Positions 15,354 to 44,255 of a DNA stretch of 64,000 nt are shown piece after piece. The notes beneath the pieces were generated by a model. That model saw nothing but the letters and a program-made list of their open reading frames with translations, was not told the DNA's origin and made no database searches. This DNA comes from Anas platyrhynchos. Lineage: Eukaryota > Chordata > Aves > Anseriformes > Anatidae. Numbering within the stretch: the first letter of the stretch is position 1; each line of letters opens with the position of its first letter. The stretch lies in assembly GCF_047663525.1 (NCBI RefSeq), contig NC_092606.1, positions 6,694,501 to 6,758,500 on the forward strand, in the 5' to 3' direction. A program made the position numbers and the translations under genes.

Positions 15354-19410
<4,057 letters not shown>

Positions 19411-21989: not shown

Positions 21990-22815
21990 GGCGCTGAGTC
22001 TGTCTGTGTCCGTCTGTCTGTCTGTGCACGCCTGTACCGTGCCCACGCACCTGTAGCTGGCCTTATGGCCGTGTACCCGTGTCTGTCTGTCTGTCTGTCC
22101 ATATGCTTCTATCTGTCCGTGTACCTTTGGCTGTCCGTATGTCCATACACCTACACCTCTATGTCGGGTACCTGTCTGTCTGTCCACGTACCTACATCTG
22201 TCTGTCCGTCTGTCTACGTACCTCTCTGTCTTTATGTCCATATACCCATGTCTGTCCGTGTGTCTGTCCGTCCATGTACCTACATCTCTTTATGTCCATA
22301 TACCTATATGTCCGTCCATGTACCTATGTCTGTCTGTCTGTCCTGTACCTATGTCCATCCACCCGCGTACCTATCTGTCTGTCTGTCCATCTGTCCATGT
22401 GTCCATCTGTCCATCCACGTCCCTATATCCGTCTGTCTGTCCCCCCATACCCATGCTATATATAGGGTGGCAGGCACTGTATACCTACCATACCTATACC
22501 TGTCCCCATACCTCTGTCTGTCTGTCCCTGTACCTCCATCTGTCTTTATCCCCATGTACCTATATCCGTCTGTCCGTCCACGACCCTGTCCGTCTGTCCA
22601 CGTTCCTATATCCATCAGTCCATATACCCCTGTATCTGTCCCCCCATACCTGATGCTGTATATATATGGCAGCAGGCAGGGTATATCTGCCATTCCTATA
22701 CCTGTCCCCATACCCCTGTCCGTCTGTCCGTGTACCCGTGTCCGTCTGTCCGTCCGTGTCCCTATACCCATGTCCCTATACCCATGTCCCTATACCCATG
22801 TCCCTATATCCATTC
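21990..22815 (+). repeat. Pyrimidine-rich (CTGT/CCGT)-based minisatellite with higher-order duplication
   Basis: About 800 bp built from CTGT tetranucleotides interleaved with CCATATACC- and CATGTACCTA-type spacers. A block that starts with CCCCCATACC and contains a TATATA plus GGCAGGCA segment occurs at about 22442 and again at about 22641, an offset of 199 bp. The array ends with four near-perfect 14-bp units (ATGTCCCTATACCC type) at 22756-22811. It stops about 40 bp before the CpG-rich POR promoter. Confidence 0.9.
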
Positions 22816-23044
22816 CCCCGTCGCTGCCCCTTTAACGCCCCCCCCCATTTGGCGCGCCGGGACCGTACCACCTCGGGCAGGACGGGGGGAGCCAAACTCC
22901 CGCGGGGCCTCCCCCTCCGGCGCCTCCCATTGGCTGCGCGGCGGGGGCGGGGCGGGGCTCCCCCCGCTGCGGAGTCGCGGTGGTGCGGGCCGGGCTGCGC
23001 GCGGCGGCGGGGCCGGGCCGGGAGGGGCAGAGCGGGGAGAGCAG
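22816..23044 (+). promoter_or_regulatory. POR: POR CpG-island promoter and noncoding exon 1
   Basis: CpG-dense sequence with an inverted CCAAT box (ATTGG, 22929-22933) followed by GC boxes (GGGGCGGGGCGGGG, about 22943-22957) and no TATA box. A strong donor, GCAG followed by GTGAGG, sits at 23044/23045, so exon 1 (noncoding) probably ends at 23044 and starts somewhere in 22960-23000. This matches the known layout of mammalian POR, whose first exon is untranslated. Confidence 0.65.
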
Positions 23045-23730
23045 GTGAGGGGGGAGGGGGGGGCTGGGGGGGGGGTGTGGGGTAAGGGGGGGGGGTTATG
23101 GGGTGAGGGGGGGGTTATGGGGTAAGGGGGGGTCGTGGCTCCTCTGCTGGGGGGTTTGGGGTGTGGGGGGCTCGCTGCTGGGGGGTTTGGGGCGAGAGGA
23201 CCCCGTTTTGGGGGGTTTTTGGGGGTGTTAAGGGGGGGTTTGGGGTGCTGGGGGGTTATTGGGGGGTTGGGGGTGAGGGGGGGTGGGGATGGGGGGGGCA
23301 GGGCCCTGTAAGGGGGGCTGGGGGTGTGGGGTGCTGTTAGGGGGGTTATTGGGGGCTGGGGGGTGTTATTGGGGGGCTGGGGTAATTGGGGGGGCGTTAG
23401 TGGAAGGATTGGGGTGGGGGGGGGCCCACTGGGTGGGGGGGTCTGGGATTGGGGGGCTGCGGGGAGCACGATCCTATTAATGGGGGGCTGGGGGTGAGCA
23501 GGACCCCGGTATTGGGGTCAGATCCCATTATTGGGGGGCTTGGGGTGAGTAGGGCCCCGTTACTGGGGGGCTTGGGGCGAGGAAGACCCCGGTATTGGGG
23601 TAAAACCCCGGTATTGGGGTGAGCGGGGTTGCTGGGGGGCTTGGGGTGAGCACAGTCCTTCTATTTGGGGTGCCTGGGGTGATGGGACCCCATTACTGGG
23701 CTGCCTGGGGCGGGCTGAGCCCTGTTATTG
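23045..23730 (+). repeat. G-rich low-complexity DNA with an about 37-bp degenerate minisatellite at the start of POR intron 1
   Basis: From the exon 1 donor onward the plus (nontemplate) strand is dominated by G-runs. From about 23470 a degenerate unit of roughly 37 bp recurs, of the type TATTGGGGGGCTTGGGGTGAG then CAGGGCCCCG, at least five times. The strong G skew just downstream of a CpG-island start site is a classic R-loop and quadruplex setting. Confidence 0.8.
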
Positions 23731-28833: not shown

Positions 28834-31800
28834 ATGGGGGACGCAGGCGTGGGCGCGCCTCCCGCGGGCAGCGTGCAGCAGGACTCCTTCTTCAGCATGA
28901 CCGACGTCTTCCTCATCTCCCTCATCACCGGGCTCTTCACCTACTGGTTCTTCTTCCGCAAGAAAAAGGAGGAGATCCCCGAGCTCCCCAAAATCCAGAC
29001 AGCGTAAGTAACAACTCGGGGAGGGGGCAGCGGCTTTCGGTCTTGGTGCCAGTCCCCCTGGGGGCTGGGACTGCAGGCTCCCGGGAGCAGAGGGCTGCTG
29101 GCTGTGTCTGAGGGTGTTTAAATGGGATTTCCAGCCTTTCCCTCAGCTTGTTCCGTGGGGTTTCCAGATGTGGGGTCTTTTTGAGCTGTGCGTTTCCTTC
29201 ACAATGCTGAAATCCCCCTGGAAGAACCAAGCTCCAGCTCTCTTACCCTGCTCCGTGGCTCAAATCAGTAATTTGTCTTGCCAAGCGAGGCGAGAAGAGG
29301 CTTTAAAATCCCCTGGCTGCACTTCAAAATGCTCCGGGATTGCTTTGGCTGTTCTCTTCATTTTCTGATAAGTCACAGATAAATCTGAAGAAAGACGAAT
29401 TTTGTTCTTAAGCAGGTTTCTTCTGTCGGAAATCTTATCTGCTCTTAGCTGTCAGGAGAAGAAATAGGGCCTTGGGAAATGGGGGATAGTTTCTGGGCAC
29501 GAGCTGCTTGGCAGCTCTTACGAAACGTGCCCGGCTTCGCTGCCTGGCCTCTGCGGCAGCAGGAGGCTGGGGAGGGACGGGGAGGGGTCCTTGTTCCACC
29601 CCGTCTGCTCCCGAGGATTTAGGGCCAGGAGCGAGCTGCGGCAGGGGTGGTCTGGGGGAGGTTGGTTCTTCGCCTGGCACGTACAAAACTCAACATCAGT
29701 TTTCTTGCTGGCCTTTTTAAGCCCATTCCTTCTGTTTCTCCTGGGAGCAGGATAACACGGTTGGTACAGGCTGGAAACCCTGCCCCGGAGAGCTCGGGAG
29801 CCGGCGCCGTGCGGTACCGTCCCTCCTGGGATCCGCTCTGAGGATGCAGCTTGCCCCGGGGCAGAAAGCCAGCTCAGTGTTGGGTCTCTGCAGAACCTAA
29901 CCTCTGTGTGGGGTGAATCCTCTGTGTCTGTAGGGCTGGGTGCAGGCTCTCTGCAGCTCCCTGCTGAGCTGGGAGCCGGGTGGGTGGCTGCACAGCCACG
30001 AGGGGCAGGAGCTCTCCGTGGATGGGTCAGGTGAGGCTGTTTGGTGATGAGCCAGGGCACTGCGCAGGAGCCAAGGCATTTTGTACTCCTGTTACCCCGT
30101 GTGGACACAGCACGAGGTTGCGGGCCTCTTATCTCTTTTATCTCCTCGGCTTCTGTAAGTTTTGTGAAGCCCCTGGGTGATGGGAAGAGCAGCACACCCC
30201 TGGTGATCAGCTGTAAGGCAGGCTGCACGCACCAGTGCGCATTTCCTGGGTGGAAAGGGTTTGGGAGAGGAAAAATGTCCCTGGCTGCAGTACCACGTGG
30301 CAAACAGGTGTGTGCGAGGCTGATAGCAGCTATCAGCGAATGATTCCCAGCCTTATCTGGGGCATTTGTTTTGTTGAATCAGTGAAATACTTTCCCTCCC
30401 GTGCCCGCAAGAGCCGTGTGGATGTGTGCGTGCGGAGCCGGGACCGCGATGGGGCACGGCCAGAGAGCGAGCGGAGCTGAGCTGGCTGCAGGAACAGCAC
30501 CAGCAGCTGGAAGTTAGATCCCGACCGACCCCAAAACTCCCATCCTGCCTGTCCTTGTGACATCCCACCAGCACACGCAGCTCTTCCCCAGGCTGCCGTG
30601 ACCTTGCAGAGAAGTGGCGCTGCGGAGGAGCTCGCCAGGCACCCCGGGTGTCTCCTCCTGCCCCGTTGTGCTGCGGGACCCTGAGCTGTGGGTATCATTT
30701 AGGGACCATTTAGGGACTGCCTGGTGGGTTTGCCCATGCTGTGCTGCCTCCTCTGCCTGGCAGACAGCTGGGTGCAGCTGCTGCTTGTGAGCTGCTGGGG
30801 AGGAGCAGCACCTTGTGTCCCCGACAGCCAGGCTGGAAGGCCGCGGTGCTCCCGACCTCGTCTGACACGGTCCCGTTTTGGCAAAGTGACAGCCAGGCAG
30901 GTGAAGAGTGAGAAAAAAAAGCCTTGAAATAGGTTTTTCTATACAGGAAACCTGCCCCTGCTGCAGCCCTGGTGTGGGCATCACAGACCCGTCATGGGTG
31001 ATGGCACGTCCATCCCCTGGGGAGTGGACAGCAGCCTCCTGCAGCTTTGGCACTGTTATTTCATGGCACGTTTGGGTCTGGGAGGGAAAGGAGTTGGGGA
31101 AAATAAGCTCGTTCAGCCTTGGATTTCCTTCCCTGGGGTGGGGCTTCCTTGCTGTTGAGCAAGCAGATGAGGAAAGCAGGTCACCATGGGGCAGGGCAGG
31201 GAGGTCTGGACCCACGGAGGCAGAGGAGCCCTTGGCTGGGGCTGTTTCAGGCTGACGTGGAGAACCTTGGCCTTTGGAGGTGCTGCCTTGCTTCAGCACT
31301 TTCCCTCCAGCTGCGCCTCGACTCACCAAAACGTCCCGATGTGCCTTATCTGGCAGCACGGGGGGACGGTTTCTGACACAGCCCTTTAGCCCCCAGCTTC
31401 AGCCTTGAGAGATTGGGGGACAAAAGGGTTGGACAGGGGTTCAGATGCGTTGTGAGGGGAGCTGCCTGGATGGGTTTGCTGCAAGGTGTGAGAGTGCAAG
31501 CAGGGGCTCCATCCACACGTGGGCTCTGGTGCCGTGGTGCCCTTTTGGGAGCTGCCCACATGCCTCAACCAAGCCAAGGCACAAAGAAAATGCCTCTGCT
31601 GCTGACTGTGGAGGAAGAAATGCACCAAATCCCCTGTTCTGGGTGGGATCTGGGTTGGGTTCACTTTCTGTGGCCCCGCACAACCACGCTCTCCCTCTGC
31701 CTGCGTGTCTGGGGTCCCGGAGAGGGGACAGAGCTGGGACCAGGTACAAGCTCCTTGCAGGCAAGACGTGGTGTACCTGTGCTGTGTGACACACGTGGGG

Positions 31801-34800
31801 CAGCCCAGGGTGCTGCCACCGAGGATTTGTAGCATTTTGGCCATTTTCAGAAGTAATCGAAGCCACCAGCACGTTCCCAGCCACCTGCTCTGCAGATGTC
31901 CCCGGGGAGAGCAGCTCCTGCGCCCCGTGCAGCCACGGCGAGGGTGGCTGTGTGCCCTCTCGGTGACATTATTGGGGCATGCACTCCTTTTCCTATTTCC
32001 TTCCCCTCGGCCAGGCCAGCTCTGCGTGTTCCTCAATCACAGATTTCCTCCCTCCCTCCCTCGTGTGCCTGCGGTGCACAGATTGCTCCCCGGGGAGCCA
32101 CGGGTGAGCCCCCGATGGGCGCACTTGGTGCCAGCCCCCCCCCATCCTCCTCCCCCTCGTCTTTGACGTTGTTTGGGGCAGAAAGGGGCTTATCTCGGCT
32201 CTGCAGCTACACAACCCCCTTCCCTGGTGCTCGTCGGGTTTCCTGTGGCAGGAATTGCTCCAACTTCTCAGCCTGATCAGCTCGCTGCTGCCTGCGTGCG
32301 TCAGAGGCAGAGACCCGCTCCGATTCCATTGGGATTGGGACCCCGGGGGGAACAAACTCCTTGGGGCCACCCCCGGCGTGGCACTGCTCACGCCGTGCCT
32401 GGAACCCTTTCATTCAGCTGCGACGCTGACTTTTGTGTTTTTTTTTTTTTGTTTTGTTTTTTTTAAAAAAAGGAGATATCTAAAAGCAGCTGGATACAAA
32501 CCGTTTCCAAGGTAACGGGGCTGGAGGAGGGTTTTGTGCCCTGTCCCCCCCCCCTTCCCTCCCTGCTCCATGGGGACGGGAGAGGGACGAGCGCTGCGGG
32601 GAATCCTGGGAGGTCTGGTTCCCTGCTCCTAATTCCTCGCTGCCCCTGCTGCCAGATGTTGCTGCCGCGGCTTGGGGCCGCGCGGATCCGCTCGGGACCT
32701 CCCCGAGCTCCTGCTATGACCCGCGCCGGGACCTCTTGCGCCGCCTCTCTTCTCCTTAACAAAAGGCTGACGCCTGGCTTCGGAGCCCGGGGGGAGCAGA
32801 ATGGAGAGGCCTGTCCCTGAATCCCCACCGAGGAGCTAAGTTAGAGCCTTCCCCCAGCGCTCCCCCCGCAGACACGGCCGCCCCGGGACTCTTTGTTTGC
32901 CTGTGCCCTCGCCATGGGATGCGCCTACTCGGTGCCAGGAGAAGAGGCGGCTGTGGCCAGGTGAGTTTGTCTGCCCCACGAAGGGGATGGCTCGGAGCAG
33001 GGGGGAGCTCCCGCTCCCCCCAGGGAGCTGCTTGGGCAGGAGAGTGCAGGGAGAGCCGTGCCGGGAGGCATCTTGCTGCCAGGAGGTCCCTGAGCGCACG
33101 GAGAGCTGTGCCGGGGGGCACCTCGCCGCCAGGAGGTCCCGGCAGTGGTGCCCGAGCCAGAGCAGTGCGTGTCCAGGTTGGTTTCTCTTCGGTGTCTGCC
33201 TGTGCCTTCAGTAGGCAGGACATTTTGGGGGGCTCTGGGAAGGAAAGGTGTGCAGCTGAACCGAGACCGAGGCTTGATGGAGCGGAGACTTTGGTAACGT
33301 TGCTGAGCTGCCGGTGATTTCCTCCCCTCCTCCTGAAATCGAACCAAAAGGGAGCTCTTTGGGCTTGGGCTCTCACCGAGGGCTCTCAGCCTGCACACAC
33401 TAAGCTAACGGAGTTAATCCCTCTCCTCCACCCGGCACTTCTTCTCTCTTACAAACGCTACCCTGAGCTGTCAAACTCTTAAGAGCGGTCGGTGCTAACA
33501 ACGTGATTTTCTGCTACGTTTTCTTTTCGTTCTCTGAGTAGTGAAAACGAGCGTCCTTTCTGTCTTCAGGATCTGTGCTTGGATTTTCAAGCCGCCGTGC
33601 TGAGGCGGTTTCAGGGAGTCCTGTAGCTCTTTTTTGCAGAAGCCAGACTCGTTTCTTCTGTGCCCGAGCCGCAGGCTGCTCCACCACAGCCCCTCGGTGC
33701 GGGCTCGCCTCCTTTGAAAGCCGACCAGCTCCGTGCGTGCCCTTTCTTCTTCTAAAGGGAGCTCGCTGAAAAGATCCCAAACTCTATTTTTTTTTTTTCT
33801 CCTTCCTCTCCAAGCGTTCTGTCAAGCTGCTGACCCAACAGCTATTGTAGCTGGATGGGACGCACCCGCGGCAGCACGGGAAGGCCGAACGGGGGCACAA
33901 AGCGTCCCTCCTGGGAGCACTGCCTCCATGGGAAGCTTTTTTGGGTAGCGTTGGCTCATCTTTCGTTCATGCTGTATGGGAATGTAAGTGCTGGGTGCTG
34001 TGGGGCCTGGTTACGGAGCTCCTTGTGGGGTTGGGGTGCTCGGGGGCGTGCTGGGTTGGACGCCCCCCACCCCGCTGCTCCCTGCGTGCGCTCTGCGAGA
34101 GCCTGCGCAGATCCCCCCCTCCGAGCCACGGGGTTTAGGAAACTGTTAGTGAGCTCTGCACATTCTCACATGGGCCGGAGCCAAAACCATTTGTTTTTTG
34201 CCTGGAGGCTTCTCTCTTCCCACAGGAGACCCAGCCTTGCATTCTTCCATTGTGAAAGAGGAATGGGAACGGGTCCCGCGTTCCCCCCTCTTCCACAGCG
34301 GGGCAGGCAGCAAGTGAGCTCCTGGCACTTGTCCTCCTGCCTTGAAGAGGCTCCGGTGGCAAATCTGCTGCAGCCACAGGGCCTGGGGGTGCCCGGCTTC
34401 CACCGGGGCTGGGTCACTCTCGTGCTGTGACACTAAAAACCGGTGAATGCGCTCAGGGCGCTTAGGGCAGCCGGGTTCTCTTGGCATTCCACCTAGCAGG
34501 GTAGCTGTAGCAGGGCGAGCTTCTGCCTGGCTGATCCTGACACTGGTGTGGTTCATCCCTCGTTCCAAGCAAAGAAAGCCACCTCCGTGCCCTCTGTGCT
34601 GGGGACAGGAGCCCTGGTGTGGGACTGAGCACCGCGGGACCCCGAAGGGCAGCGGTCGCCTTGCCAGCGGCTCCAATCCGCCGCGGAGCCTCTGTGTGTC
34701 CCTGGGGCTCCCGGCTCTGGGATTCGTGTCTGGCACGCTCTGGGAAGGTCTGTTTTGAGGTCAGAACAGCTGGTTTTTAGCCTTGTGTGACTTCAAGCTT

Positions 34801-37800
34801 GGAGAACCCGCCCCTGGGGGCATGGCTGAGAATGCAGGCAGAGGGGGGAGGCAGGGAGCGCTCCCGTCCCTCCTCTCGCACCGTGGTTAATCTGAAGGCA
34901 TCCTCGCATCCCAGCTCCATGAGGTCCCCTCAACCTGCCCGGCGGTTACGGAGCAGTTTTCAGAGTTAAAAGTTTCCTGCTGCCCGGGGCTGAGCTGCTG
35001 GGCTCCTCCTAGCAGCTCGCTGTCCTCTGCTCTGTGGCTGTGTGTGCAGAAGCCACCCTGCAGCTGAGCTGAGTGCTGGGCAGCCCTGGGACAGGCTAAA
35101 CACATGTTTGGTGGGGAATCTCCCTGCTTTGAAAGCCTTCCTGAGACCCGAGATAGGTTGGGGAGCTTTTTTTCCCTACTTGCTTATTCCTGACCTTAAA
35201 GAGCGTGCTCATCTGAGCGGGGATTCCTCCTGTCTTTCAGACCAGCCTCGCCGAGAGACAGCAGCTTCATTGAGAAGATGAAGAAGACGGTAAGCTGCCT
35301 GCGTGCACGCTGTGCTGGGGGGGTGACGGAGCTGGTGGCATTCCCTTGCCCCCAGGGACTGCCAGCTGCCAGCAGGGGGGACCTCTTTGCCCCCAGAGAC
35401 CTGTCTGCTGCAAGGAGCGCCCAGAGACGGGGAGGCAGGAGCAGCTCGAGCGGTCTGTGCACGAGGGTTGCTCTTAGAGAAAGTTAAAGTGACAATTGGA
35501 TGCAAGAAAAAAAAAAAATGTAACATGAGATGGAATTCAGGAGGGAAACGGCAGGGACTTCAAAGTTGTTGACTGCCAGCTGTGTGTCTGTGGGGCTGGT
35601 TCCCGAACCTGGCTCGCTCTGAGATGGGAATTGCACACAGAGCTGGCAGCTGCTGGCTGCTGGACGGCACGCAAGAGGAAGCTTTGGGAAAAGCAAGGGC
35701 TGGATACGTTTCCCATTGTGCATCAAAGTAGCTGGCTTGCTGCAGAGCAGGAGCTCCTGTGCTCGGGCACTTCCCCAAAGCTTTGGCAAAGCTGCTCTCA
35801 TCCAGGGAGTTCCCCGCACAGCCTCGAGGCTGAGAGCAAACCTCGAGGGGTTGTCCTTTGCTTTGGTTTTAGTCCTCCCCGAGTCACCTCGGAGACGAGC
35901 AGGGCGATATTCCTGCTGACAGCTCAGCCTTGAGGTTTCTGCCACGATCCTGGTGGCAGCTCCAGGACGAACGCAGGCTCCTTCCAGCTGCAGGGCTCCT
36001 GGTCCCAGGCTTCTGTGACGAGAAGCACTTCCTCTGCGCCTCTGCCAGATGAGTAATCACCATTTAACGGGGATTTCTTCTTCTCTCCAGGGACGCAACA
36101 TCGTGGTTTTCTACGGCTCCCAGACGGGCACGGCGGAGGAGTTTGCCAATCGCCTCTCCAAGGACGCTCACCGCTACGGCCTCCGCGGCATGGCAGCAGA
36201 CCCCGAGGAGTATGACCTGGTAACTGGGACACAAGCACGGCCTCGGGATGGATCATATCCACCCAGCAGTCCCCAAAAAGCAGACAGAGCTTGGCCACGG
36301 GGCTGTTGCCCTGTTGGCGGTGGTACTCAGAGGAGCAAAGGAGGTTGAATGAGGTGGAGAGGTGCTGAGGTGGGCTCGGTCCTCGTCAGCCTATGGATTT
36401 GGGGTGAACTCTGCAACGTGTCTGGAAAGGGAGGGTAGCCTGGGGTGTTTGGGAGCCGTGTCACACTGTTATCAGTGTGAAAAATGCTCCGTGTTCATTC
36501 TGTAGTCAGCATTGGTCCCATGGGCCTGCAGCAGCCTGGCACAGGGGCACTGATGTTCCGCTCTCAGGATAAAACAATCCTGTCCCGTACAGCCTAGACA
36601 GAAAACCCAATCGCTTTTTTAGGGGGCAGCAGTGCTGATTTCACCCCAGCCCCTGTTGTAATTATTTTGCCGTGCCGTGGTGCTGCTCTGCGCAGCGGGG
36701 CTGTGGCTGTGCTGTAGGAACAGCTGTGCCCGATACCCCTCTCGTGGGATCCCTGGAGCTTTATTCTCTGCTGTGTTGCAGTCGGACCTGAGCCGCCTCT
36801 CCGAGATCGACAAGTCCCTGGCTGTGTTCTGTATGGCCACGTATGGGGAGGGCGACCCCACGGACAATGCCCAGGACTTCTACGACTGGCTGCAGGAGGC
36901 AGACGCCGACCTCTCGGGTCTCCGGTTCGCAGTAAGTCAATTCCTTCCCGTTTCTGCTGCATTTGGGCAGGAAAAGCCCAAAACCCTCCGCTGTGAGCTG
37001 CTCCGTTCCAGTTTCTGCTGCATTTGGGCAGCAAAAGCCAAAAACCTTCCGCTGTGCTTGCACGTGGCTTGGGTAAAGGCACAACATGATGCCTGTGCCT
37101 CGTCTGGATGCGGTCCCTGTTGTCTCTGTCTGCACAGATATTTGCAGGCACGTATCCGGGGGCTTTAAACGCAGCTGCCGGAGCCCTCTCTCCACTCCCT
37201 AAATCATGAGGGTTCGCTGGCGATGCCTCGCCGCAAACAGCCCAGCAGGCATCGAGTGTAAGGTCTGGAAATGAGTTACAGACTGCTGCTGCTGTTCAGA
37301 AGCTAATTGAGCAGCCCTTGGCCACATCTTCTCCCACAAATTAAATCACTCGGAGGAGTGCGTGGCTCTTCTCCTGTGCCGAGCTGAATAATTGGCGGAG
37401 ACACAGCCACCTCGCCTAAACCCCAGCCAAGTTCCTCAGGCTGCATCACAATTGCAAAGGGAGGGGAAAATCCTCTGCTGGAGAGGCGAAGCTGCTCGGC
37501 ACAGAGCAGCCAGGAAGCGTTCGCTGGGTGGTTTTTGGGAGCTGGGGGGGACACAAGTGGTCTGCTGGCAGCACAGCCCCTCGCTGGCCCCTGGGGGAGC
37601 TGGCACAGGCAGCTCCTGCCTGCACGTCCCCTCGCTGTGCCTGAATCCTGGCTCGGAGCAGAGCTGCCAGCTGAGCGAAGCCAGGGGCAGGTTGTAACTC
37701 AGAAAGTTCACAAACAGCTGGTAGGGACCCGGGAGAGTTACTGCTGTCTGCCTTCTGCGTTCCTTATCTCATCATCCTCTGCCTGCTGCTGGCCAGGGGA

Positions 37801-40800
37801 AATCCCCTCCTTGCTGCTCCGTGCTTATCAGCATTCTCCTCCAGGTCTTCGGGCTGGGGAACAAGACGTACGAACACTTCAATGCCATGGGGAAGTACGT
37901 GGACAAGAGGCTGGAGGAGCTTGGGGCTCAGCGCATCTTTGAACTTGGGCTGGGCGATGACGATGGCAAGTGAGTGGCTCGGCTCTAGGGGCGGTCTGAG
38001 CTGGCTAAAGCAGCGTGGGAAGGACCTTGGCAGGGAGCTGGATCTACTGCCAAGGCAGAAATTAACTCCTCAGGGCTGGTTGTGGCAGCTGGCATGGCCC
38101 TGAGTGTGTGTCTGGTCCCTCTCCTACAGAGATCAGTCAGATCCCTGGGTCCCTTGAGCATCCTGGGGAATCCCGAACCTGGGGAAATCCCACATCAGCT
38201 TTAAATGCCCGTAGCTGTGTTCTTTGCAAGGCTTCACAGCCTCTTCTGCCTTTGCCCTGCTGCAGCTCCCCTGATATCCCAGCCATGGATAAGCTCCTCC
38301 ATCCCCGTGGAGGAGCCAGGCTCCATCTCCTTGTGAACTGTTTGTTTTATGCCAGAACGCAGCCCTGCTCCAACTCAGAGCTCCAGAAATGTCTGTGCTC
38401 ACCTAACACCCTTCTGGCAGGAGCTTAAGCGTGGAAATTACATCAACCTGGGGCTGTGCCTCCAAGGACTGCAAGATTTAATTCGAGGGCTGTGCCATGT
38501 GTGGGAGGCTCTGAGTCTAGGAAAATGAACCTTTCCAGGCGACTTAATGCCAGGAGTGGGCAAGGGGGAGCTGAGTTGGGCAAAAACCGAGTGTGAATAA
38601 CAAAACCCTCCTTGGCAGAGCGCAGAAGGGAGGGGTGGGTGGTGCAGCAGGCATCCCTCCCATCCCCTTCGTGCCCTGAAGATGCTCTGAGGCTGGTCTG
38701 TGGGCACGTGGAGGTACCAAAACTGCCCGGCTCCGAGGGCAAATGGTGAAGGAGGGGGTTCAGAGGGATCTGGGACGGCTCCTCCGGGAATGCCCCTCTG
38801 GGAACGCCCCTCTGGGAGTGCCCCTCTGGGAGTGCCCCTCTGCTCCCTCGTGGGCAGCGTTACTGAACCCCTCTTCTGCCCTGCCTAGCCTGGAGGAGGA
38901 CTTCATCACCTGGAGGGAGCAGTTCTGGCCGGCCGTGTGTGAGCACTTCGGGGTGGAGGCCACAGGAGAGGAGTCCAGGTGGGTGCCAGGGGGATCGACC
39001 CCCGTTAAGTGGTGGCTGCAGCATCAGGCTGGAGCCACTGCCCAATTCCTGCGGGCTGGGGGGCGCACAGGGGGCAGGTCAGCGAGTGGGGCTCTTGGGA
39101 CTGAGCCTGTCCTGGGGCAAATTCGAGTGCAGCTCTGGAGTTCTGGTTTGAAGGGTGGATGTGCTGGGTGCTGGGTTTTTTACCTTGTTGTTCCCACTTT
39201 GACTTTTTTCCTCTTTCCTTTCCCCGTTTCTCCCAGCATCCGCCAGTACGAGCTCGTGGTGCACACGGACGTGAACATGAGCAAAGTGTACACGGGTGAG
39301 ATGGGTCGCCTCAAGAGCTACGAGAACCAGAAGCCGTGAGTGCCGGGCTGCCCTACACGGGGTGTGAGGGGTCAGGCTTCAGCTGCTGCTGCTCCTGATG
39401 TTTCAAACACCACAGGCAGGGTCATTTTGGCAGCACAGCCATGGGGCAGATGTCTGCCTGAGAGATGTGGGCTCAGATCTCCCCTGGGACTCCTGGGGGA
39501 TCCCCAGTTAATGAATTATTGAGAAGTCGGCTGTGTTCACAGGCGCAGTTTTGGCTGCTAAGTTCCCAGCATTTGTCTCGAGGTCAGTCTGGAGCCTTTC
39601 GTCCCCCAGAGTAATTAACGCACGATGGCTGCTTGCAGCATTGCTGGGGGGAGATGAATTGTGTAAATGAATTCCAACCTGAAATGTCGCTCTGAGACGT
39701 GACACTCCCTCTAATCCCCTGTTGCATCACTTGTTCTTCACGGGGTAGGAGCTGTTGACTGCTGGGCTGTGCTTACAAGGAAAATAATCTGTTTTCTTTG
39801 CCAGCGTGGGTAGCAGCAGGATCGTAATTTGTTTCGTGCTGTGGGGTGCTTTGAAACAAGAGCCGGGGCAGCCCCGTGCTCCGATGGTGGAAGCCTGCTC
39901 TGGAGCATTCCTGGATGAAAGCAGAGCTGCGAGCCCGCGGGAGGGTAACCCAGAGGTCCTTGTCTTTCCTTCCAGACCTTTTGATGCCAAGAATCCCTTC
40001 CTGGCCATGGTTACAGAGAACCGTAAGCTGAACGAGGGCGGAGAGCGACACCTCATGCACCTGGAGCTGGACATCTCCAACTCCAAAATCAGGTAGTTGC
40101 CCGCGAGAGGCTGCTCCCCTCTTCTGGCTGCAGCCAAAACTTAACAGTGCCCCCTCTTGGCGCCTGGACCACACACCAGGTACTCCAAATCAGGGTTTTC
40201 TCCCACCTTTGGGGCTGTACCTGGCCACCCTGATGAGCCCCTCCATAGCAGGCTGCGCATCCATCCCACCTGGGCAGTGCCAGCTGCAAGAATTCCCTAA
40301 TTCAAAGAAAAAGGGAGCAGACAAACTGTGAGAGGCAGGAACTGGGGATGGCTCATGCCTGTTTGCTTGGCTTAGATGTACGAGCAAAGGGAGGCTAGAG
40401 CCCTGCTCTTCAGCCCTCTTGCTGGCTTAAATTCGTTGGTGTGCTTGTGAGAAAGCACGGGGCAGGGAGCTGGCCTGTCCTTGCTGGAAGTCTGGCCTCG
40501 TTAAAGTCTCTGGCAAAATTGCAGTTATCTTGGAGCTTCCCCAGGTTGTTAAAACCAGTATTCCCCAGTGGTCCCGTGCTGCTCTGCCTGCCAGCTCTGG
40601 GGTCTGGCCCTGCAGGTGCTGTGCAGCAGCTCAGCTCTGCTGTCCTGCTGAGCCCCAGCCTGTTCGTCCCCCAGCTGAGCAGCTCGGGCTCGGCGTGGGC
40701 GAGAAGTGCCAATTTTCATCTCTTCTCTTCCTGTTTTTGTACCAGGTACGAGTCTGGGGACCACGTGGCCGTGTACCCGGCCAATGACTCATCCCTGGTG

Positions 40801-43800
40801 AATCAGATCGGCGAGATCCTGGGCACGGACCTGGACACGATCATGTCCCTGAACAACTTGGACGGTGAGTGTGGATCTCCCCTGAGCATCAGCAGCTCTC
40901 CTTCTGCCACGGCCTCTTGTCCTTGCACCAGAGCAGAGGTCAGATCCCCTTCGGGATTGAGGCAAACGGGGACATCCCGCGGCCACTCCGAGTGCGCAGC
41001 CATTTAGCGGCAGCGGCTCGGAGCCTGCTGCGAGCCAGCCGAAGTGGGTCAGTTGTGAAATGTCCTCGCTGTGCCCATCCAACAACACGTTACGTAACAG
41101 CACGCTCCTAATCACAGAGCACCAGCCCACCAGAGCATCCCTCTGCTGCTGCTGCAGCCCCAGAGCTCGGGAGGAGCTTTGGAGCCTGAAACGCTGGTGG
41201 TGAGCCCCTGGAGGACGCACAGCCCTGGGGACGGAGCTGTCGGAGGAGAGCTCCTCTCAGTGCTGATTCAAAGAGCTTCTCTTGGGCATCGTTCCCAGCA
41301 GAGCTGGCCTCTGGCAAGAGGGAGCTTGCAGCTGCTGCCCATCTTGCTCCCAAAGCGGTGAAGCCTGCGCCAAGGCATCAGAGCTGCTGGCCCAGGAGCT
41401 GGCTCCTGGTTTGCAGAGAGCGACTGGCTTTAATGCGCTGCTGGAGCTCTGTCCCAGTCTCTGGCCTCATATCATCGTTTGTGTCCCTTACGGTGCTCTT
41501 AGTTTGCTAAATTGAACAGCTCCAGCCTTGGCTGCTGCTGCTTCACCTCCCCGGGGGGCTGTGAGCACAGATGTCCGTGGCCAAAGGATGCTTCTGAGGG
41601 CAGGTCTGACGGAGGCATTAAGAGCATGAGGCCAAATTAGCCCTGCAGAGCCCCCTCCTGCTGGGCCTGGCAGTTCTCTGGGTGTCTCTGCCATGAGCTC
41701 GCCCTGGAAAACTACTCCCACCTCTGCCTGGGCCCCAGGCTCCGAGCACTGCTGCTCTCCAGGCTGAGGGCAGTGCCTTCCGCGTGGCCTTCCCAAGGTG
41801 TCTGTGCAGTGACGCTTCCCATGGGAGGCAGGGAACAAAACTGCGTCCACCTCCTGTGCTGCACACAGCTGCTGGCAGCAAATCTCTAATTTAACAAATA
41901 GTTACTGGTTTACTTTTTTTTTATTATTTTTTTCCTCTTTCCTCTCATCTCCTCCAGAGGAATCCAATAAGAAACACCCCTTCCCCTGCCCCACGTCGTA
42001 CCGCACAGCCCTGACGTACTACCTGGACATCACCAACCCGCCCCGCACCAACGTGCTCTACGAGCTGGCGCAGTACGCCACCGACAGCAGCGAGCAGGAG
42101 CGCCTCCGAAAGATGGCATCGTCCTCTGCGGAGGGCAAGGTGGGAGCTGCAGCCCTCCCAGCACAGCTGCTGGGGTGAACTGGGGCTGGGGAGGGGGACC
42201 AGAAGGGGATGTGGGGCCGCTGGGCGCCCTGTGCGGGGAGCTCTGCGGGTGTTTGGTGGCTGCATGGGGTCACCGTGCGTGTGCCCTCCTCGCCCGCAGG
42301 CTCTCTACCTCAGCTGGGTGGTGGAAGCCCGGAGGAACATCCTGGCCATCCTGCAGGACATGCCCTCGCTGCGCCCCCCCATTGACCACTTGTGTGAGCT
42401 TCTGCCCCGCCTGCAGGCCCGCTACTACTCCATCGCCTCCTCCTCCAAGGTGAGCTGCGGCACCACGGGGTCCCTCCGTGCCCGAGGAGCGGGGTTACCC
42501 CGACCTGTGTAGGGTCCGCAGGGGGAAACCGGGTGTCCCACGCTGCAGCCAGCTGTGGGGGCTCCCCGTCTGCCTGCCTCTGACGTCCCCTCCCCGCAGG
42601 TTCACCCCAACGCCATCCACATCTGCGCCGTGACGGTGGAGTACGAGACCAAGACGGGGCGGCTGAACAAAGGGGTGGCCACCAACTGGCTGAAAAGCAA
42701 GGTGCCCAACGAGAACGGGAGCAACTCCCTGGTGCCCATGTACGTCAGGAAGTCGCAGTTCCGCCTGCCCTTCAAGCCCAGCACGCCCGTCATCATGATC
42801 GGACCGGGCACTGGCATAGCTCCCTTCATCGGCTTCATCCAGGAGCGTGCCTGGCTCAAGCAGCAAGGTGAGCGCCCAAAAACCTCCCCGGGCAGGAGCT
42901 GCTGCAGGGCTCTGCTCTGCGGGGCCGGCCAGCACCTCCAGCCTGTGCTGGCCACACGCTGATGGGTCAGGGACGTGGGCCTGGCAAAGCAGGGGCTGTG
43001 GAGCTGGGTGAGGAGCTGCCGAGTGCTTTATTGCAGCACCAGGGTGCTTTGAGCTCTTCTGGCTGCAGAGGATGTTTGAGGGGCAGACAGACCTAAGGCA
43101 ATTTTTTGACCTCCGCAACCACCTCCCCAAATAGCCAGAGTCGGGTCGCTTACACTCGTTTCTAACAGGTGTAGCTATTGAATGAGTTTCTCCCCTCAAA
43201 CAGAGGCAGCAGCACAGCGCTGCCAGCCCCGAATCACACAGTCATTAGGTTGGAAGAGCCCTCCAAGATCACCCAGCCCAACCTCTGACCCAACACAAGT
43301 CCTCCACTAACCCATATCCCTGAGCTCTACATCTAAACGTCTTTTAAAGACCTCCAGGGATGGTGACTCCACCAGTTCCCTGGGCAGCCCATCCCAATGC
43401 CTCACAACCCTTTTGGTAAAGAAGTTTTTTCCTGGGCGAGCTGGACAGGGGGAGGTGGGGGTGGCAGGGCTGGGGGATTAACGTGGACCCTGGGACCCCA
43501 CAGGCAAGGAGGTGGGCGAGACGGTGCTGTACTACGGCTGCCGCCACGAGCGTGAGGACTACCTGTACCGCCAGGAGCTGGCCCAATTCCAGCAGGAGGG
43601 CGTCCTCACCCAGCTCAACGTCGCCTTCTCCAGGGACCAGGCTGAGAAGGTACCGCTCCTGCCCGCTCACCGTGGTGCTGGGGGGGGGAAATAAGGCTGG
43701 AAACACGCAGCCCGCTGCCAGGGAACGGCCGTGGCAGTCACGGGAAGCCCCAGCTCGTCTGGGTGAGCTGTGGGCCCTGTGACAGCTCCTGGGGGCACGG

Positions 43801-44255
43801 GGACTCTGCCCCTCTCACCTCCCCCTTGTTCCCTGCCAGGTTTACGTTCAGCACTTGCTGAAGAAGAACAAGGAGAACATCTGGAAGCTGCTGCATGACG
43901 GAAACGCTCACATCTACGTGTGCGGGTAAGTCGAGGGGTGGGGAGGGGATTTTGGGAAAGGGTTCCTATTTTTTGGCAAATAAGCGTGACTCAGCTTACC
44001 CACTGCTCCATGTGCTGGGCTGAGCAAGCCCCCCACATCTGGGCGTTCAGAGCCAACCAGGGCTCGGTGGCCCCGTGTCCCCACCTCGCTCACGGTCCTC
44101 TCCTTTCCAGGGATGCCCGCAACATGGCCCGGGACGTACAGAACACTTTCTACGAGATCGTGGCTGAGTATGGGAACATGAGCCAGTCCCAGGCCACGGA
44201 CTATGTAAAGAAACTGATGACTAAGGGCCGCTACTCCTTGGACGTCTGGAGCTAA
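28834..44255 (+). CDS. POR: POR, NADPH-cytochrome P450 reductase (15 coding exons, 674 aa)
   Basis: Coding exons: 28834-29003, 35241-35289, 36091-36219, 36782-36931, 37845-37969, 38889-38978, 39237-39335, 39976-40092, 40746-40864, 41958-42139, 42300-42449, 42600-42867, 43504-43649, 43840-43925 and 44111-44255. They total 2025 nt with consistent phases. The start is ATG in GCCATGG (MGDAG), 14 nt into exon 2. Residues 24-41 form the ER membrane anchor, followed by the stop-transfer RKKK. The FMN (flavodoxin-like) domain has [10 protein letters not shown] (81-90), [11 protein letters not shown] (135-145) and [11 protein letters not shown] (168-178). The FAD domain has RYYS (451-454). The NADPH domain has GPGTGIAPF (528-536), CGDARNMA (626-633) and the C-terminal DVWS, whose Trp stacks on the flavin. 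The enzyme passes electrons from NADPH through FAD and FMN to microsomal P450s, haem oxygenase and squalene monooxygenase. It looks intact and strongly conserved. Confidence 0.98.
32640..32913 (+). promoter_or_regulatory. Candidate internal CpG-rich POR promoter or leader
   Basis: This patch within intron 2 is unusually rich in CpG (GCCGCGCGGATCCGCTCGGG-type sequence). It lies directly upstream of a Kozak-context ATG (GCCATGG at 32911-32917). A pyrimidine-rich CCCCCCGCAG ending at 32871 could alternatively be a splice acceptor. The call rests on composition and position only. Confidence 0.35.
32914..32960 (+). CDS. Candidate alternative first coding exon of POR (acylation-signal N-terminus)
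   Basis: The ATG at 32914 in GCCATGG opens a 15-codon frame ([15 protein letters not shown] plus AG) that ends exactly at a strong donor, GGCCAG followed by GTGAGT (32961). It ends in phase 2, the same phase as normal exon 2 (ends at 29003), so splicing to exon 3 (35241) continues in frame with R-PASPRDSS and then the full FMN domain. The start M-G-C-A-Y-S fits the N-myristoylation pattern (Gly2, Ser6) with a Cys3 for palmitoylation. The predicted product is about 633 aa and lacks the transmembrane helix. The exon may extend upstream to a possible acceptor at 32871/32872. No transcript evidence can be seen from sequence alone, and a chance match remains possible because the exon is short. Confidence 0.4.
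33051..33140 (+). repeat. 50-bp tandem duplication in POR intron 2
   Basis: A 40-bp core beginning GAGAGCCGTGCCGGG and ending CCAGGAGGTCCC lies at 33051-33090. It recurs with a few changes at 33101-33140. It starts 90 bp after the candidate alternative exon. Confidence 0.85.
36951..37056 (+). repeat. 61-bp tandem duplication in POR intron 5
   Basis: The segment TTTCTGCTGCATTTGGGCAG continuing to CCTCCGCTGTG at 36951-36995 is repeated with minor changes at 37012-37056. It begins only about 20 bp after the exon 5 donor. Confidence 0.88.
38786..38841 (+). repeat. 14-bp x 4 minisatellite in POR intron 6
   Basis: Four contiguous units of GGGAGTGCCCCTCT (two exact, two with one or two changes). 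The array ends 47 bp before the exon 7 acceptor, within or near the expected branch-point region. Confidence 0.92.
43231..43432 (-). mobile_element. CR1 LINE 3' fragment in POR intron 13
   Basis: Reading plus, it starts CACAGTCATTAGGTTGGAAG, passes through ACCTCCAGGGATGGTGACTC and ends GTAAAGAAGTTTTTTCCT. This is the reverse complement of the CR1 3' region, so the element is antisense to POR. It is 5'-truncated, as usual, and moderately conserved. It ends about 70 bp upstream of exon 14. Confidence 0.93.

Follow-up and report, generated by a model that had tools for sequence, protein, structure and literature searches.

Intron 2 of the POR gene very probably contains a real and deeply conserved alternative first coding exon, here called exon 2b, which would give rise to an acyl-anchored POR devoid of the transmembrane helix; the expression, acylation, location and partner of this form are predictions drawn from sequence. 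POR is classically taught as the ER-bound electron donor to microsomal P450s and heme oxygenase, and exon 2b looks like an old, overlooked second form of this textbook enzyme. A lipid-anchored isoform starting from an exon in intron 2 had been proposed in a preliminary description of the window (the whole 64-kb stretch of DNA analyzed), and the proposal is now supported by 20 deposited POR models in which a Met-Gly-Cys (MGC) N-terminus is joined at exon 3, acylation itself being predicted.

The POR gene occupies the + strand of the window, where the coding exons, mapped with a human POR sequence as the query, span positions 28834-44255 and yield a complete canonical POR when joined (Table 1). 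The ATG at 32914 in a GCCATGG context, the 15 codons that follow and the phase 2 end at CAG/GTGAGT, all described previously, were found again upon re-reading of the sequence. Exon 2 has a phase 2 end, and the codon is completed by a single base from exon 3, so that exon 2b enters exon 3 in frame, and its joining to exons 3-16 produces a 633-aa protein free of early stops. Its donor agrees with the consensus at 9/9 positions versus 6-8 for the 14 coding donors of POR. The catalytic part of the predicted protein is complete, with isoform residues 21-633 aligning to solved soluble POR (e.g. residues 6-618 of 5fa6), while the ER helix is encoded by exon 2 and hence missing from the alternative isoform; the 15-residue MGC head is probably disordered. 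A protein search of the same genome with the first 32 residues of the isoform retrieved only exon 2b and exon 3, and a second copy was absent.

Table 1. Position of exon 2b and associated features with respect to the canonical POR exons, in window coordinates
Feature	Position	Strand	Remarks
Canonical POR exon 2	28834..29003	+	Encodes the start codon and the transmembrane helix for the ER; donor in phase 2
Moderately CpG-rich patch, candidate alternative promoter	32651..32950	+	CpG o/e 0.76
Exon 2b, possible 5' UTR	32858..32913	+	Weak acceptor-like AGs end at 32857 and 32871; crow model P0002 joins approximately here
Exon 2b, alternative first coding exon	32914..32960	+	15 codons + AG, phase 2; N-terminus matched in 20 deposited POR models
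M-G-C-A-Y-S codons, predicted N-myristoylation (Gly2) / S-palmitoylation (Cys3) signal	32914..32931	+	Residue conservation
Exon 2b 5' splice site GTGAGT (CAG/GTGAGT)	32961..32966	+	9/9 consensus positions
POR exon 3	35241..35289	+	Acceptor common to exon 2 and exon 2b
POR exons 4-16 (n = 13)	36091..44255	+	FMN, FAD and NADPH domains common to both isoforms

The 5' boundary of exon 2b is less sharply drawn than its donor. Stops interrupt its frame upstream of the ATG, and no other ATG is present in 32858-32913. Among the 430 AGs of 29050-35235, those resembling acceptors at 32857 and 32871 rank 66 and 94 (zero-based), these scores being rough as the matrix was built from 14 POR acceptors that were left in the scoring; position 32872, where the feature had initially been taken to start, directly follows the second of these weak AGs. 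In the crow model P0002, exon 2 is read in another frame, with the join to the MGC exon at the counterpart of ~32857, so that exon 2b may also be a cassette. A promoter of its own is a candidate alternative. The CpG-rich patch reported just upstream exists, although at a moderate level only: in windows of 300 nt, 38/1274 have a CpG observed/expected ratio higher than that of 32651-32950 (median 0.39), and the ratio is ~0.5 in windows starting at 32751-32901.

The comparative evidence comes from protein searches with residues 1-42 of the isoform and then with the deer and tarpon matches as queries, which listed 124 proteins in all; the closest matches to the isoform were avian, with a quail protein first. 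In 20 of the 124, all of them POR models, the MGC N-terminus meets the exon-3 part at the junction, a number that may miss any MGC start with an altered anchor, five of the 124 proteins being without the EKM anchor on which the script relied. They belong to 18 genera, comprising birds (Callipepla, Corvus and Limosa), mammals (Bos, Cervus and Canis), bichirs (Erpetoichthys and Polypterus), the sturgeon Acipenser (two copies), the gar Lepisosteus and the bowfin Amia, and teleosts (Anguilla, Albula, Megalops, Scleropages, Denticeps, Engraulis and Clupea, the latter with two genes). Erpetoichthys belongs to Cladistia, and from its presence in this set we infer that the MGC exon predates the split between ray-finned fish and tetrapods. 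No MGC start was seen among the primate, rodent, marsupial, platypus, squamate, turtle, Oncorhynchus and catfish rows of the 124 listed proteins, where some may be concealed by the word-based search and the 90% clustering, nor in any of four lgn-source rows (P0038, P0040, P0041 and P0102); amphibian and shark PORs are absent from this list altogether. The deposited MGC proteins are predicted models; 'X' isoforms from the NCBI pipeline are usually supported by RNA-seq.

Within this set, Gly2 and Cys3 are found in 20/20 deposited models and Ser6 in 18/20, the exceptions being the two sturgeon copies, which have Ala; conservation of these three residues across species, which the preliminary description had made a point to verify, is thus largely borne out. 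At 99.5% core identity, the sturgeon copies add little to the comparison. With the second of them dropped as a duplicate and the window included (20 rows), residues 1-3 do not vary, residue 5 is always aromatic (Y or F), S6 occurs in 19/20 and P8 in 18/20. All 21 sequences (the window and the 20 models) start with Met-Gly-Cys, the rows having been selected for MGC, yet found by similarity over the whole region, and all 21 fit the PROSITE myristoylation pattern PS00008. Changes between lineages are mostly conservative (V/A/T/M at residue 4, Y/F at residue 5), and between the window and the ropefish Erpetoichthys the first eight residues are identical (8/8), with 11/16 identical in the overall alignment. 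The frame is intact in species as distant as bichir and dog and in those between, and the distance to SF[IV]EKM stays within 22-25 residues. As judged by eye, Arg precedes the exon-3 part in 21/21 rows, as expected of a junction codon AG/A or AG/G. Of phase and donor, whose conservation was also to be examined, a conserved phase is in keeping with this Arg; for the donor, DNA and junction codon were read in the window, the other species being represented by proteins.

Past the junction, the MGC model and its canonical counterpart agree at 607/607 residues in each of Denticeps, Engraulis, Megalops and Amia, which establishes one gene with two starts in these four fish; the two herring MGC models are 78% identical in the core and lie on contigs of unequal size. 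Seven species have both N-termini, and in ungapped comparison of the resulting 21 pairs, mean identity over residues 2-8 amounts to 67% for the alternative start versus 39% for the canonical start. The godwit and crow models have exon 2 sequence followed by the MGC exon; since exon 2 sequence stands ahead, the MGC exon is located between exons 2 and 3 in these birds too. Other helix-less N-termini joined at the exon-3 part were noticed in Mirounga (P0083, P0084 and P0092) and Monodon (P0037), and these elephant seal and narwhal models may mean that the POR gene has more than one alternative start.

Several explanations other than an acyl-anchored isoform were weighed. On both strands of the window, three ATG frames of 10-40 codons reach AG/GTRAGT in phase 2, and among them exon 2b alone has GCCATGG and alone starts with MGC. 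A search of the 1.26-Gb genome with the pattern GCCATGGG, a Cys codon, two codons, a TCN Ser codon, a variable spacer and AGGTRAGT returned one match, exon 2b itself (such genome pattern counts can be lower bounds), and the reversed control of this Kozak-MGCxxS-donor pattern returned none in the same 1.26 Gb. With a length of only 15 codons, exon 2b could be viewed as a chance open frame endowed with a good Kozak context and a donor, and it had been cautioned earlier that chance could not be dismissed. Homology overturns this caveat: 20 POR models have the MGC N-terminus at exon 3, and they extend over birds, mammals and at least six orders of ray-finned fish. Together with the single match of the combined pattern in 1.26 Gb, this conservation leads us to reject chance, which we regard as exceedingly improbable unless the annotation of one model had been transferred to the others in disagreement with the genomes themselves.

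Conservation by itself could serve another function, the most serious contender being a regulatory poison cassette, whereby inclusion of exon 2b after exon 2 would shift the frame, create an early stop and lower POR through nonsense-mediated decay, with the MGC protein minor or absent. The crow model P0002, which reads as exon 2 (in another frame) and the MGC exon in one transcript, is in line with this scheme, as is the fact that exons 2, 2b and 3 of the window, read from the canonical ATG, meet a stop inside exon 3 with either acceptor. However, retention of an ATG, G2, C3, an aromatic residue 5, S6, P8 and a phase that restores POR would serve no purpose in a poison cassette, and 18/20 models overall, including 14/14 fish models, start directly at the MGC Met and leave out exon 2. 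As the principal role of exon 2b it therefore appears unlikely, yet the poison-exon and MGC-isoform roles can coexist. Less plausible still, and in our estimation quite unlikely, is that the stretch is kept for a reason at the DNA or RNA level (alternative promoter, enhancer or splice regulator) with the MGC frame as a passenger. The modest CpG-rich patch directly upstream would suit such an element, and over a short stretch 5' of the ATG the godwit model and the window resemble each other in another frame (DTAA..LFVC..P), with a score of 42 against a maximum of 35 in 200 shuffles, but the mostly conservative character of the lineage changes at the protein level, the 22-25 residue spacing and the frame retained between bichir and dog speak against it, and a pure DNA-element explanation is rejected on account of this conservation.

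Under the acyl-anchored isoform, which is thus preferred, a transcript with exon 2b in place of exon 2 would be translated from the exon 2b ATG into the 633-aa reductase, which would have lost the ER transmembrane helix while keeping the entire diflavin enzyme behind its Met-Gly-Cys head. N-myristoyltransferase would then acylate Gly2 and a DHHC enzyme would palmitoylate Cys3, and this dual acylation would hold MGC-POR on the faces of the Golgi or the plasma membrane, as for eNOS, Src-family kinases and G-alpha. Anchor-free POR reduces cytochrome c and supports microsomal P450s poorly, so that an acyl anchor would maintain a hold on membranes and change which membrane is held. From there, electrons of NADPH may be passed to partners outside the bulk ER, such as caveolar heme oxygenase-1, P450s present locally or small acceptors of single electrons. 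The choice of heme oxygenase-1 is a guess, guided by the report that this enzyme uses POR and is present in caveolae (excerpts of PMC8044534).

A broader proposal, to which we give only slightly better than even chances, is that an additional POR, dually acylated and produced by means of a mutually exclusive first coding exon, is part of the inheritance of bony vertebrates, and that this form transfers electrons at a site other than the ER (the Golgi, the plasma membrane or caveolae), apart from the support of microsomal P450s and unrecognized in POR physiology and disease. MGC-POR would have been overlooked because its only records are predicted models of the 'isoform X2' kind. If kept since the bony-vertebrate ancestor, the acyl-anchored form would constitute a second subcellular pool of reductase, and it might account for POR-dependent effects outside the ER, such as those that involve caveolar heme oxygenase, the peroxidation of lipids or the activation of prodrugs. 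In that case, knockouts or variants restricted to exon 2 would spare MGC-POR, whereas lesions in exons 3-16 would hit both forms. No account of an MGC-POR isoform was found in the literature covered, preprints and most subscription papers being outside its scope, and the excerpts of PMC4023047 and PMC10741880 mention only an untranslated exon 1.

Comparison with known systems shows that the proposed design has parallels. The closest relative is canonical ER POR, made from the same gene with the same exons 3-16 and complete FMN, FAD and NADPH domains, but with the helix-bearing exon 2 where the MGC form has a 15-codon MGC exon. eNOS (NOS3) is also a diflavin reductase, with an oxygenase domain in addition, unlike POR. 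It represents the nearest precedent, being placed at the Golgi and plasma membrane by Gly2 myristate and palmitate as proposed for MGC-POR, and it moves between Golgi and caveolae; however, it is palmitoylated at Cys15 and Cys26 and is said to diverge from the Met-Gly-Cys motif named in the same source (excerpts of PMC11678294). CYB5R3 has two isoforms with different N-termini, of which the membrane form is N-myristoylated on Gly2 (excerpts of PMC9706631), but it is an unrelated single-flavin enzyme and its other form is soluble rather than helix-anchored. The NAD(P)H flavoprotein FSP1 (AIFM2) is directed to the plasma membrane and lipid droplets by N-myristoylation (excerpts of PMC10295722). 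It differs by its fold and by being a quinone reductase. To our knowledge, FSP1 has no helix-anchored twin. Lastly, a human POR whose ER anchor was exchanged for a myristoylation signal from v-Src retains function at the inner plasma membrane (excerpts of PMC7660101). The latter protein is a laboratory construct, whereas here the same design is apparently encoded by the genome.

Other features of the locus and of the listed proteins deserve mention. Upstream of POR and on the same strand, positions 15375-19275 hold an RHBDD2-like gene. Such a rhomboid-like N-terminus is fused to POR in some deposited proteins (P0012 from Turdus and P0031 from Apteryx were read), which suggests read-through transcripts or joined models. 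A GC-rich and CpG-rich patch at ~22800-23060, with AGCAG/GTGAGG close to its end, may correspond to the main promoter of POR and to its first exon, which is untranslated. An Rfam scan of the window gave zero matches at gathering scores. Directly past the exon 2b donor, two 49-nt direct repeats that are 86% alike occupy 33042-33140. Finally, the squamate PORs P0070 (Candoia) and P0072 (Podarcis) have an MGTASSK start ahead of the ER helix, which looks to be of the myristoylation type.
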